A program made the translations under genes and the position numbers. The notes below the pieces were generated by a model, which made no database searches, was not told where the DNA came from, and was given only the letters and a program-made list of their open reading frames with translations. A DNA stretch of 35,918 bases, from the NCBI GenBank assembly GCA_902521005.1, contig CABYPZ010000011.1, positions 1 to 35,918 of the forward strand, read 5' to 3'. This document shows, piece after piece, positions 25,043-29,717 of this stretch; position 1 is the first letter of the stretch; the number at the start of each line of letters is the position of its first letter. Origin of the DNA: an uncultured Pelagibacteraceae bacterium. Its GTDB lineage: Bacteria; Pseudomonadota; Alphaproteobacteria; Pelagibacterales; Pelagibacteraceae.

Positions 25043-26227
25043 ATGAAATCCAATAAAAGAATTGTTTTAGCTTATTCGGGCGGCTTGGACACGTCAATAA
25101 TTCTTAAATGGCTTCAAGAAAATTATAATGCAGAGGTAATTTGTTATACTGCTGATATTGGTCAAGAAATTGACAAAAAAAAAATAATTAAAAATGCGAA
25201 AAAACTTGGTGTCAAAAAAATAATTATAAAAGATTTAAAGAATATATTTGTAAAAGACTATGTTTACCCAATGATAAGAGGTCATGCTATTTATGAAGGT
25301 ATTTATTTGTTAGGTACATCAATCGCTAGACCTTTGATAGCAAAAGACCAAATTAGAGTTGCTAAAAAATTTAAAGCTTATGCTGTATCTCATGGATCAA
25401 CTGGTAAAGGAAATGACCAGGTAAGATTTGAACTTGGATATCATTACTTTGGTTCAAAAATAAAAATTATAGCTCCTTGGAGAATTTGGAAATTAAAATC
25501 TAGAACTGACTTAATAAGATATGCAAATAAACATGGGATACCTATTCCAAAAGATAAAAAAGGTGCGCCTCCTTTTTCAGTTGATGATAATTTGTTTCAT
25601 ACTTCAACTGAAGGTAAAGTATTAGAGAATCCAGAAAATTCTGCTCCTGAGTCTATTTTTCAAAGAACTACTTCACCTGAAAAAGCACCTAACAAGCCAA
25701 CATTTTTAACAATAAATTTTAAAAAAGGTGATCCAATAGGAGTAAATGGAAAAAATATGAGTCCAACAAAATTATTAGAAAAATTAAATATGCTTGCGGG
25801 TAAGAATGGAATTGGAAGAGTAGATTTAGTTGAAAATAGATTTTTAGGAATAAAATCAAGAGGTGTATATGAAACACCTGGTGGAACAATTTTAATTAAT
25901 GCCCATAGAGCTATTGAATCTGTAACTTTAGATAAACAAACAATGCATAAAAAAGATGCAATTATGCCTAGATATGCAGAATTAATTTACAATGGATATT
26001 GGTATTCAAAAGAGAGATTTAAATTACAAAAGATTGTAGATTTGAAAAGAAATAAGGTTAATGGGTCTGTAAAACTAAAATTATATAAAGGTAATATTAC
26101 TATTCAATCTAGAATTACAAATAGTAATGCTTATTCAATGAAAAAAGTTTCATTTGAGGAAAATAAAACTTTCATCAAGTCTAATGTTGAGAGATTTATT
26201 AATTTTCACAAAAAAAAATTAAAATAA
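25043..26227 (+). CDS. argG: Argininosuccinate synthase
   Basis: Cytoplasmic ATP-dependent ligase joining citrulline and aspartate in arginine synthesis. The 394-residue protein has the PP-loop YSGGLDTS (11-18), the SHGSTGKGNDQVRFELG segment (about 115-131) that binds ATP and substrate, and GVYETPGGT toward the C-terminus, all canonical. Length is normal. It starts 8 bases after the IalB-like gene and ends 6 bases before the photolyase-like gene. No other arginine gene is present here. Confidence 0.98.
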   Translation: MKSNKRIVLAYSGGLDTSIILKWLQENYNAEVICYTADIGQEIDKKKIIKNAKKLGVKKIIIKDLKNIFVKDYVYPMIRGHAIYEGIYLLGTSIARPLIAKDQIRVAKKFKAYAVSHGSTGKGNDQVRFELGYHYFGSKIKIIAPWRIWKLKSRTDLIRYANKHGIPIPKDKKGAPPFSVDDNLFHTSTEGKVLENPENSAPESIFQRTTSPEKAPNKPTFLTINFKKGDPIGVNGKNMSPTKLLEKLNMLAGKNGIGRVDLVENRFLGIKSRGVYETPGGTILINAHRAIESVTLDKQTMHKKDAIMPRYAELIYNGYWYSKERFKLQKIVDLKRNKVNGSVKLKLYKGNITIQSRITNSNAYSMKKVSFEENKTFIKSNVERFINFHKKKLK

Positions 26228-26233
26228 TTTAAA

Positions 26234-27379
26234 ATGAATTTTCAACCATCGAGGGCTTATGCCATTGAACAGCTGGAGAATTTTATAAATAATGGTTTGG
26301 TTGATTATTCTAGAGCTAGAAATTTTGACTTCGGCCCAAATAATAGATCAAATATCTCATGCCTTTCTCCATACATATCTCATGGAGTTATCACAGAATT
26401 AGAAGTAATCAAAAAATCATTAAATAAATTCTCATTCTCTAAAAATGAAAAATTTATTCAGGAAGTTTTATGGAGGACATATTGGAAAGGTTGGTTAGAA
26501 TTGAGACCTTCAGTTTGGACAGATTATTTAAAAGAACTCAAAAAAATTAATGAAGAATTTAAAGATAATTCTAATTATAAAAATGCTATTGAAGGAAATA
26601 CCAACGTAGAATGTTTCAATGAATGGGTTAGGGAGTTAAAGGAAAAGAATTATTTACACAATCATGCGAGAATGTGGTTTGCAAGTATTTGGATTTTTAC
26701 ATTAAATTTGCCTTGGCAACTAGGAGCAGAATTTTTTATGAAACATCTATACGATGGAGATAGCGCAGCTAATACTCTAGGATGGAGATGGGTTGCAGGA
26801 ATTCAAACAAAAGGTAAAAATTATCTTGCAAGTGAATGGAATATAAAAAAATTTACTAATAATAGGTTTAATAATATAAAACTAAATGAAAATGCTCCTC
26901 CAAAAATAAGTGGCAAAACTTATTCTGCAGCAAAATTTGAATTCAATAATCCTCAAAATTTTGAGGAAAAAGATCTTCTTATTTTTGAAAATAATTTATC
27001 TTTTGAAATAAGTAATTTTAATAATCAGAAATTTAAAAAAATTATCTTAGTTTTAAATAAAAATGAAAATCGTTCAATAAGGCTTAGTGAAAAAGTAATG
27101 AAATTTAAGTTTCAATTAATTGAGGATCAAAAAAAAAGATTAGAAAAAAAATCAATTAGCTGTGAAGTTATTGATGTTAGTGAAATTAAAAATTTGGACG
27201 AAAACTTTTATAGTTTATATCCTACAGTTGGAGAAAACTTAGATTATATAAATTCAAATGGTCTTAAAATAGAATTTTTATTTAGGAAACTTGATCAATT
27301 TTCTTGGCAATATTGTAATAAAGGATTTTTTAATTTTAAAAATTATATCCCAAAGATAATTACAACTTTTAATTCATAA
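26234..27379 (+). CDS. Photolyase-like flavoprotein with FAD domain first
   Basis: The 381-residue protein opens directly with the photolyase/cryptochrome FAD-binding helical domain and lacks the usual N-terminal alpha/beta domain. Diagnostic segments are CLSPYISHG (43-51), EVLWRTYWKGW (77-87), HNHARMWFASIW (142-153) and DGDSAANTLGWRW (174-186), which correspond to flavin-pocket elements. After about residue 245 a different region follows with alternating strands and helices (DLLIFENNLS, FKKIILVLN, a long helix, then VGENLDYIN). It may be the antenna-type domain moved to the C-terminus. DNA repair or light sensing is possible. It starts 6 bases after argG. Confidence 0.82.
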   Translation: MNFQPSRAYAIEQLENFINNGLVDYSRARNFDFGPNNRSNISCLSPYISHGVITELEVIKKSLNKFSFSKNEKFIQEVLWRTYWKGWLELRPSVWTDYLKELKKINEEFKDNSNYKNAIEGNTNVECFNEWVRELKEKNYLHNHARMWFASIWIFTLNLPWQLGAEFFMKHLYDGDSAANTLGWRWVAGIQTKGKNYLASEWNIKKFTNNRFNNIKLNENAPPKISGKTYSAAKFEFNNPQNFEEKDLLIFENNLSFEISNFNNQKFKKIILVLNKNENRSIRLSEKVMKFKFQLIEDQKKRLEKKSISCEVIDVSEIKNLDENFYSLYPTVGENLDYINSNGLKIEFLFRKLDQFSWQYCNKGFFNFKNYIPKIITTFNS

Positions 27380-28093
27380 AAGTTTTTTAAAATTTTTATA
27401 AAGAATTTTAGAATAATTGTTCATATCAGCCATATTATCTTTGGCTGATTGATTAAACTTTTCTAAAGCATTATGTCCTAGTTGTTCTTCTAAAGTTTTT
27501 TTATACTCTGGTACGCAGCCCCATTCATTGACTGTTGTATCTTTTATTTCGATATGAAATTGAATTCCGTATGCATGATTTTGATATTTAAATATCTGGT
27601 ATTTAGTAACTGGTGATGAAGCTATTAAAGTAACATCTTTATTGTTTTCAATTTCTTGCACTTCATACGAGTGCCACTGCAAACTTTTAATTTTATCAGG
27701 AAATTTTGAAAATAAATTATCTTTCTGTTTCTCTTTAGTAAAATTTATATCCATTATACCAATTTCTGCTGGATTTGATTTATTTACCTTACCACCCACA
27801 ACTTCACCTAATAACTGACAACCTAAACAAAAACCTAAATAAGGTTTTTTTAAATCTACTACAAATTGTTTAATCTTTTTTTTTTCTTCTATTAACCAAG
27901 GATATTCTTTTTCCATGTATGTATCCATAGGGCCACCCATACAAAACATTCCATCAAATTTACTAATATCATTAGGGATTTTTTCTCCCTCATCTAGCTC
28001 TATGGTGGTAAGATTAATTCCATCAGCCAACATTAAATCTTTAATATAACCCGGATCTTCAATTTTAATATGTTGTAATACAATTATGTTCAC
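27374..28093 (-). CDS. Class I glutamine amidotransferase domain protein (GMP synthase-like)
   Basis: Stand-alone GATase1 of the GuaA-like subgroup that hydrolyses glutamine or acts on a related gamma-glutamyl compound. The 239-residue protein has the nucleophile elbow GFCLGCQLL with Cys89 and the catalytic pair His180 and Glu182 in GIQFHIEIK. The oxyanion segment MGGPMDTY lies near residue 52. No synthetase domain is attached. It follows the DUF2256 gene by only 5 bases, so it is probably cotranscribed with the cryptochrome-family gene, and its end overlaps the convergent photolyase-like gene by 6 bases. The physiological substrate is unknown. Confidence 0.9.
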   Translation of the reverse strand: MNIIVLQHIKIEDPGYIKDLMLADGINLTTIELDEGEKIPNDISKFDGMFCMGGPMDTYMEKEYPWLIEEKKKIKQFVVDLKKPYLGFCLGCQLLGEVVGGKVNKSNPAEIGIMDINFTKEKQKDNLFSKFPDKIKSLQWHSYEVQEIENNKDVTLIASSPVTKYQIFKYQNHAYGIQFHIEIKDTTVNEWGCVPEYKKTLEEQLGHNALEKFNQSAKDNMADMNNYSKILYKNFKKLL

Positions 28094-28098
28094 TAAAA

Positions 28099-28227
28099 TT
28101 AACTTAGCTTAGAACACCTTTTAGAACAATATTTAACTCTATCCCAATTAAGCTTCCACTTCTTTCGCCAAACAAAAGGTCTTTTACAAACAGGACAAAT
28201 TTTAGAAGGAAGATTTTCTTTTTTCAC
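28099..28227 (-). CDS. DUF2256 zinc-ribbon protein, 42 aa
   Basis: A very short frame on the minus strand runs from GTG at 28227 to TAA at 28099. The product has [14 protein letters not shown] and then YCSKRC, a CxxC plus CxxxC arrangement that should bind one zinc ion, as in the DUF2256 family. The GTG shares one base with the stop of the upstream cryptochrome-family gene (TAGTG), so it is translated by coupling. As I recall, this family is often found next to cryptochrome/photolyase-family genes, which fits here. The role is unknown; the many Lys, Arg and Trp residues would suit nucleic-acid contact. Confidence 0.88.
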
Positions 28228-29717
28228 TAAATAGTATTTTGTTTAATAAATTTATCAGCTTCAGATAAAATTAATTTTTTTCTATCTTTTTTCATTTTAT
28301 CAAAGATATGAACCATCATAGATAATCTAGGATTTTTTGAAAAAAATTTTCTATTTCGATCAATAAATCTCCAATATAATCCATCCATTGTGTTACACCA
28401 ATCACCTTTTTTAAAATCCATCATTTTCATAAAATAACTTGAACCACATATATATGGTTTAGTTGCAAAGATTCCTCCATCGCTAAATAAACCCATGCCA
28501 TAAACATTTGGAACCATTACCCAATCTGAAGAATCTACAAACATCTCCATAAACCATTTATAAACAATAGTTGGTTTAATTTCACAAAGGTTCATAATGT
28601 TTGATAAAATCATCAATCTTTCAATATGATGTGACCATCCATAATTTAAAGCATTTTTAATTGCATAATCTAATGGTGGTAAGCCTGTTGTTCCTTCATA
28701 CCAAGAGTTGTTCATTTTTCTATTTTGTTTAAAGAAATTTTTTGACTCCATTTCATCAGAATAGCTTTGATACACTCCTCTCATAAACTCTCTCCATCCA
28801 ATTACTTGGCGAATGTATCCCTCTAAAGAATTAAGTCGTATTTTTTTTATTTTATGAAAGTCTAAAATTTTTTGAATAATAAATTCAGGAGTTATTAATC
28901 CTAAATTAATATAGGGACTTAAAGCACTATGAAACAAAATATTATTATTTTGATTAACTGCATCCTCATAATCACCAAATAAATTTGATTTTTCTTTTAT
29001 AAAGAAGTTTAAAATTTTAACTACATCCTCATATTCTGTTGCAAACCAGAAATTATCTGTACTACCTGGGTGATCTTTAAATAATTTTTCTATAATGGGT
29101 TTTAATTTTTTAGTATGATTAGTTTCATTTATCTTTGGAAACTTTGGTATGGAAATATCTTTAGGCAATTTATTTCTATTATCTTCGTCAAAGCTCCATT
29201 TTCCTCCAACTGGATTTCCATCTGAACCCATAAGTATTCCTAATTTTTTACGAGTCTCTTTATAAAAAGTCGCCATAAAAGGTTTTTTAGATTTTTCTAA
29301 ATAAGTTTTAAAATCTTTTCTAGAATTTAAAAACATTGGAGTTTGAATAATATTCCATTGAATTTTTTCTTTTTTTAAAAATTGAGAAAGTTTTTTTTCA
29401 AAAAATTTGTCCTCAACCTCAAAGCTTGAAATTTCTTTTATTTTTTTCTGGTTAATTATTTTTTTCAATTTTTTTAAATAATCTTCTTTAAATTCTTTGT
29501 CCTCAATACTTTGATAATTTAATTTAAATTTATTCTTTCTAAGTTTGTCTGCGTGGGAGCGCATTGATGATAGAAATAATAGTATTTTTTGCTTATGATG
29601 CTTCTCGTAAGTACATAAACCTAGATCTTCCGCCATAAAAAAGAGGTGATCATTTTTGAAGCGGTTTAGGTATTTTGGTGGAAATAACTGATTTCCAAGT
29701 ATAAAAAATAACTTCAT
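28227..29717 (-). CDS. Cryptochrome/photolyase-family protein (PhrB/CryB-related)
   Basis: The 496-residue protein matches the bacterial cryptochrome-photolyase (FeS-BCP) group. An N-terminal alpha/beta domain begins FFILGNQL, and the flavin domain shows [10 protein letters not shown] (265-274), [10 protein letters not shown] (315-324), [12 protein letters not shown] (360-371), LPNxxGM-like [15 protein letters not shown] (401-415) and GLYWRF. Family members such as PhrB repair (6-4) photoproducts and carry a 4Fe-4S cluster. Here most cluster cysteines appear absent: Pro347-Pro348 and a KKGD segment stand where cysteines are expected. It is divergent from the SDR gene with only 28 bases between, and coupled to the DUF2256 gene. 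Confidence 0.88.

Follow-up and report, generated by a model that had tools for sequence, protein, structure and literature searches.

A NewPHL-type photolyase gene of SAR11 bacteria whose C-terminal domain is probably a relocated antenna domain

Domain layout of the photolyase

The window analysed here is a stretch of 35,918 nucleotides from an uncultured Pelagibacteraceae bacterium (assembly GCA_902521005.1, contig CABYPZ010000011.1, forward strand). On its plus strand, at positions 26,234–27,379, lies a separate open reading frame (ORF) with an ATG start that encodes a NewPHL-type photolyase of 381 amino acids, as judged from the ORF list, the orthologues and a phylogenetic tree. Three parts follow one another along the chain, all on the same strand. 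Residues 1–223 (26,234–26,902) form an N-terminal catalytic domain that binds flavin adenine dinucleotide (FAD), recognized by Pfam PF03441 and by VIA-align against 1iqr. A linker of about residues 224–243 (26,903–26,962) comes next; the structural model has neither helix nor strand at 208–246, and the fold match ends near residue 223. The C-terminal Z-domain, residues 244–381 (26,963–27,376), has an antenna-like alpha/beta fold according to structural models, a fold search with the isolated domain and a profile bridge. With the FAD domain first and the antenna-like domain second, the order is reversed relative to classical photolyases.

The sole Pfam match above cut-off in the 381-residue protein is FAD_binding_7 at residues 74–198 (E 4.7e-18). 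No antenna domain stands in front of the FAD domain, and the antenna domain PF00875 was found neither in the protein nor in the 86%-complete window genome. Pfam gave nothing above cut-off for the last 144 residues. Transketolase_C was considered for the C-terminal part and rejected, being below cut-off (13.6 and 15.5 bits versus 25.9). Sequence relatives in the PDB are photolyases and cryptochromes, aligned to about the first 210–225 residues only. The PDB profile search (49 sequences) gave best aligned ranges that never went beyond profile position 224; therefore no solved NewPHL structure was recognized by sequence.

The AlphaFold model, built from the window protein and 69 Pelagibacteraceae orthologues, has a mean predicted local distance difference test score (pLDDT) of 90.1 and a predicted template modelling score (pTM) of 0.91. 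All elements up to residue 207 are helical. Residues 247–379 form a beta–alpha arrangement with strands at 247–250, 270–274, 310–314, 325–329 and 346–350. Residues 1–223 match photolyase structures in VIA-align (1iqr: Z 16.1, 208 aligned residues, root-mean-square deviation (rmsd) 2.5). Modelled alone, the last 144 residues give a five-strand alpha/beta domain (pLDDT 83.4, pTM 0.76). The initial annotation of this DNA had placed a flavin-binding helical domain at residues 1–240. Such a domain does come first; its fold spans 1–223, so the longer range includes the linker. The further guess that the last 140 or so residues are an antenna-like alpha/beta fold, in this chain order, is borne out by structure prediction of the isolated domain and by the fold search with it.

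Fold and profile relatives of the Z-domain

The isolated Z-domain was compared with solved structures by VIA-align, in which rows within a Z of 1 count as tied and a Z under 8 may reflect a common arrangement. The nine best rows all belong to the prokaryotic (6-4) photolyase family, at Z 7.6–8.9. The best is 8ijy (Z 8.9, 108 aligned, rmsd 2.7, model residues 8–116 on chain residues 2–126), followed by 7ykn, 3zxs and 8a1h (8.5 each), 4dja (7.9), 9hnk (7.8), 6dd6 and 5lfa (7.7 each) and 9q8f (7.6); one of the nine entries is the cryptochrome CryB. The matches to 8ijy, 7ykn, 3zxs and 9hnk stop at chain residue 126–131 and are clean antenna matches. The remaining five extend further into the chain.

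Profile comparison of the Z-domain with the DPRP domain gave a collinear but weak alignment for the 49-sequence profile (P 0.01, 113 columns), with a score reached by none of 100 shuffles. For 23-sequence profiles, P was 5e-4 and 1.5e-3 with row L046 as seed and 0.015 and 0.029 with the window protein as seed; shuffles as high numbered 0, 0, 1 and 1 of 60. This likeness offers weak support for a putative antenna origin.

A second connection runs through small antenna-like proteins. A FAD-only photolyase gene is present in 8 of 288 alphaproteobacterial genomes, and in five of these eight, as well as in G694 of another class of the phylum, a small antenna-like ORF follows it directly. Such pairs, at L309, L312–L315 and L317, amount to a reversed photolyase split over two genes, as with cyanobacterial phr4/phr5. 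The Phr5-like profile, made of six sequences, aligns with class I antennas at a probability of 94.5% (P 7.7e-8, 103 columns) and with the 49-sequence Z-domain profile at 75.3% (P 2.5e-5, 102 columns); neither score was reached in 100 column shuffles. Its probability against the 23-sequence Z profile seeded with L046 is 63.7%, and against DPRP 16%. Among the controls, FolD and ArgG gave 0.3–0.4%; USP, a control of the same HUP-like fold, reached 25% across 45 columns. The chain of profiles from Z-domain to Phr5-like proteins to antenna thus supports common descent. The step from the Z-domain to the Phr5-like proteins is of moderate strength and is not conclusive.

Active-site residues and the FAD-domain tree

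Residues were compared in 54 rows chosen by profile score, not by motif, with E. coli Phr as reference; the functional roles of the compared E. coli residues (CPD contact, that is, contact with cyclobutane pyrimidine dimers (CPDs), FAD binding and tryptophan relay) are those of that enzyme. In E. coli numbering, all 54 rows retain E274, W277, N341, M345, D372, D374, N378, R344, Y222, W382 and W359, and 52 of them retain W384. Two NewPHL relatives, L053 and L054, have a glutamine at the CPD-contacting W384 position. The W306 column, which aligns loosely, holds a tryptophan in none of the 54 NewPHL-family rows and in all 18 class I rows. A count over 49 rows that had passed a motif filter agrees with these figures. 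Cysteine occupies at least half of 49 rows at one column only, C127 (32/49), so there is no four-cysteine iron–sulfur (Fe-S) set.

The FAD-domain tree groups the 49 NewPHL rows in a single clade with an SH-aLRT support of 99; the 19 class I, 26 DPRP and 6 FAD-only rows fall outside it. The FAD-only proteins are a separate branch, with a cysteine motif in some only. The tree is a quick search that carries a long-branch warning, and its deeper joins were therefore not used.

Distribution among relatives

The best 80 matches among named genomes are all from Pelagibacteraceae or Candidatus Pelagibacter, which places the window in SAR11. Homologues of the same order, which the initial annotation had proposed to look for, do exist: 69 full-length Pelagibacteraceae orthologues share the domain order at 67–83% identity, and others occur elsewhere in the alphaproteobacterial class. 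Among 61 genomes including its own, some match is present in 50 and the full-length protein in 25; in two more, a piece lies at a contig end. The full-length rows have no internal stops. A photolyase-type match at E <= 0.001 was found in 172 of 288 genomes of the class. The reversed-order family within the class was taken as the 24 best matches, all over 230 bits and including the window's own genome; the C-terminal part was inspected in 18 of these. A search across the phylum found matches at E <= 1e-40 in 34 of 397 genomes; those of G086 and G694 (under 165 bits) are of the FAD-only type, and the other 32 genomes are in the same class. Matches occur in 132 plasmid records, and in six of these the alignment takes in 80% or more of the protein. 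One of the six is from Ruegeria sp. TM1040; it is 32.5% identical and carries no annotation beyond 'FAD-binding domain-containing protein'. Ten pattern matches on viral contigs included no relative by tblastn.

Gene neighbourhood

Immediately upstream on the plus strand lies argG, encoding argininosuccinate synthase (25,043–26,227; PF00764 match); the photolyase ORF starts 6 bp past its end. Across 80 Pelagibacteraceae loci, for which all counts are limited by locus ends, argG is upstream in 78. In 48 of the 80 the gap between the two genes is about 900 bp, with a longest ORF of 150–154 amino acids, so that 'argG operon' describes the arrangement only loosely. The photolyase had been described as fused into such an operon. 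It is not: the link to argG is one of gene order alone, with no protein fusion. The window has no such ORF between the two genes; two examples from the loci that do (among L061–L140) contain hydrophobic stretches.

Downstream, a convergent class-I glutamine amidotransferase gene on the minus strand (27,374–28,093; ORF list and Pfam PF00117; in 38 of the 80 loci) overlaps the photolyase gene by 6 bp. Beyond it, also on the minus strand, lies a second photolyase gene (28,227–29,717; PF04244 and PF03441) of the DPRP or prokaryotic (6-4) type, present in 68 of the 80 loci. Its cysteine columns show that all four Fe-S cysteines, kept in 22 of 26 aligned DPRP homologues, are absent; three further DPRP homologues (L182, L183 and L184) also lack them. 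This second photolyase resembles subgroup M, a published group that lacks Fe-S and includes PromaPL (PMC9178010).

The window genome (G000, 86% complete) contains only two photolyase-family genes that could be found, both inside the window. Five of the six genus genomes that are at least 90% complete have the NewPHL gene together with a class I-like match (ORF of 475–489 amino acids). The sixth, G022, has the class I-like match only. A replacement of class I by NewPHL in SAR11 was considered and set aside on these grounds.

Relation to known photolyases

The NewPHL photolyases of Dinoroseobacter shibae and Methylobacterium mesophilicum were reportedly described by Emmerich et al. in 2020 (NAR 48:12845), and the NewPHL Z-domain is said, in the NewPHL abstract, to close off the FAD site. 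The swapped architecture noticed in the initial annotation is not new: the topology with an N-terminal FAD domain is already published for NewPHL/Phr7 (PMC9426592, PMC13274461). Prochlorococcus Phr7 is described as having an N-terminal FAD domain, a C-terminal Z-domain and no Fe-S cysteines (PMC9426592), and the D. shibae NewPHL as having a tryptophan dyad (PMC8948257). The window protein shares this layout, the dyad and the lack of Fe-S cysteines, and the hosts are likewise alphaproteobacterial or marine. It is set apart by its SAR11 host, with no difference in kind, the comparison being with published descriptions and not with reference sequences. The 381-residue protein fits NewPHL in each feature tested: domain order, CPD and FAD residues, tryptophan dyad and absence of an Fe-S set. 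Among the publications listed for Pelagibacter or SAR11 with photolyase, none is on NewPHL by title or opening of the abstract, and no claim of an unreported member is made.

Reversed order is also described for Phr4/Phr5 and Phr6 of marine Synechococcus, Cyanobium and Nostoc (PMC9426592). The Phr4/Phr5 pair and the Phr6 fusion have the FAD domain first and the photolyase (antenna) domain second; the former is encoded by two genes, the latter by one fused gene with a recognized photolyase domain. These proteins are described in the same paper with Fe-S cysteines, whereas no Fe-S set exists in the SAR11 protein, whose C-terminal part, unlike that of Phr6, is without a Pfam-recognized domain. 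Class I CPD photolyase, represented by E. coli Phr, has the FAD domain and the CPD active site in common with the SAR11 protein, but its antenna domain is N-terminal and it possesses the third relay tryptophan, W306. No solved fold came closer to the Z-domain in this analysis than the N-terminal antenna of the prokaryotic (6-4) photolyases (PhrB, SePhrB, CryB and Vibrio FeS-BCP). These enzymes differ in placing the antenna before the FAD domain, in acting on (6-4) lesions instead of CPDs and, mostly, in carrying an Fe-S cluster.

Interpretation and alternatives

In established photolyase chemistry, light-excited reduced FAD donates an electron to the dimer. The most likely function of the window protein is light-driven repair of CPDs; by analogy with the characterized NewPHLs, its substrate is probably CPDs in single-stranded DNA. 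The N-terminal helical domain is predicted from conserved residues to bind FAD. Blue or near-UV (ultraviolet) light would excite the reduced FAD, and an electron would pass to a dimer held by E77, W80, N143, M147 and W186; the dimer would then split and the electron return. FAD would be photoreduced through a two-tryptophan relay of W184 and W161, the third classical tryptophan being gone. Loss of repair activity, leaving a cryptochrome-like light sensor, is very improbable, as the CPD-contacting residues are conserved throughout the family, and characterized relatives of the same layout are reported as repair enzymes (PMC9426592, PMC13274461).

The gene most plausibly encodes a NewPHL-type CPD photolyase in which an antenna domain, now shortened, has been relocated to the C-terminal end of the chain; the probability of this is high. 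Several results weigh against it. Only four listed VIA-align rows for the isolated Z-domain exceed Z 8. Foldseek gave the same domain no match at E <= 0.001, and its top row, 1vhy, is not a photolyase, photolyases being ranked 2, 3 and 6. Direct hhalign comparison with class I antennas shows no signal (under 1%; 2.0% over 27 columns) and is at chance, with 2 of 60 shuffles scoring as high in one comparison and 21 of 60 in another. The Phr5-like profile meets the window-seeded 23-sequence Z profile at only 12.9% (P 0.0022, 53 columns). Finally, what links the protein to NewPHL is its architecture, its residues and its relatives in the Alphaproteobacteria, not an alignment with the tested NewPHLs A8LJA9 and M7YZC8.

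In a rival account, a Rossmann-like or HUP-like domain with no kinship to the antenna, for instance one of the USP or CARF type, took the antenna's place and the order was never permuted. The weak Foldseek values, the chance-level hhalign scores and the ties in VIA-align all favour such a domain: the best unrelated row, Can2, has Z 7.1 and a USP row 6.7, both within 1 of the lower photolyase rows, and the photolyase entry 5kcm, at 6.9, falls below Can2. This replacement is nonetheless unlikely, since members of the prokaryotic (6-4) photolyase family take the first nine places in the fold search and the Phr5-like bridge joins both the Z profile (P 2.5e-5) and class I antennas (P 7.7e-8), with FolD and ArgG controls under 0.5%. 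Because of those fold ranks and that profile link, a swap of domain order is the likelier of the two events that the initial annotation had offered, permutation or unrelated replacement, although the link is moderate and not conclusive. The lack of an upstream antenna domain would also agree with a truncated class I photolyase, or an assembly artefact, joined to foreign sequence. That account is refuted by conservation and deserves almost no credence: a full-length match exists in 24 other genomes and at 80 named loci with conserved gene order, and the genome rows contain no internal stops.

How a relocated antenna arose is a more speculative matter. It is possible, if rather doubtful, that separate parts were joined into the photolyase architecture on more than one occasion, a stand-alone antenna protein and a FAD-only photolyase being fused FAD-first to give NewPHL, with the Z-domain as an eroded antenna that became a lid on the flavin site. 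Some alphaproteobacteria and cyanobacteria still have FAD-only and antenna-like genes side by side, in phr4/phr5-like fashion. Alternatively, an ancestor with the antenna first may have undergone a true permutation.

Implications

SAR11 bacteria are among the most abundant cells of the sunlit ocean. The reversed-order class of photolyases has been known since 2020 as NewPHL, and the SAR11 gene is a real, ordinary member of it. The present analysis adds profile and fold evidence that supports an antenna-derived Z-domain, and the observation that a DPRP-type photolyase gene often lies near the NewPHL gene (68 of 80 loci). Since the gene occurs widely among Pelagibacteraceae, in most cases close to another photolyase gene, reversed-order photolyases look standard in the UV repair of these organisms. 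With profiles that connect the Z-domain, by way of Phr5-like proteins, to the antenna, the idea of a relic antenna at the C-terminus of NewPHL becomes testable, and this question bears on which architecture arose first in the photolyase family.
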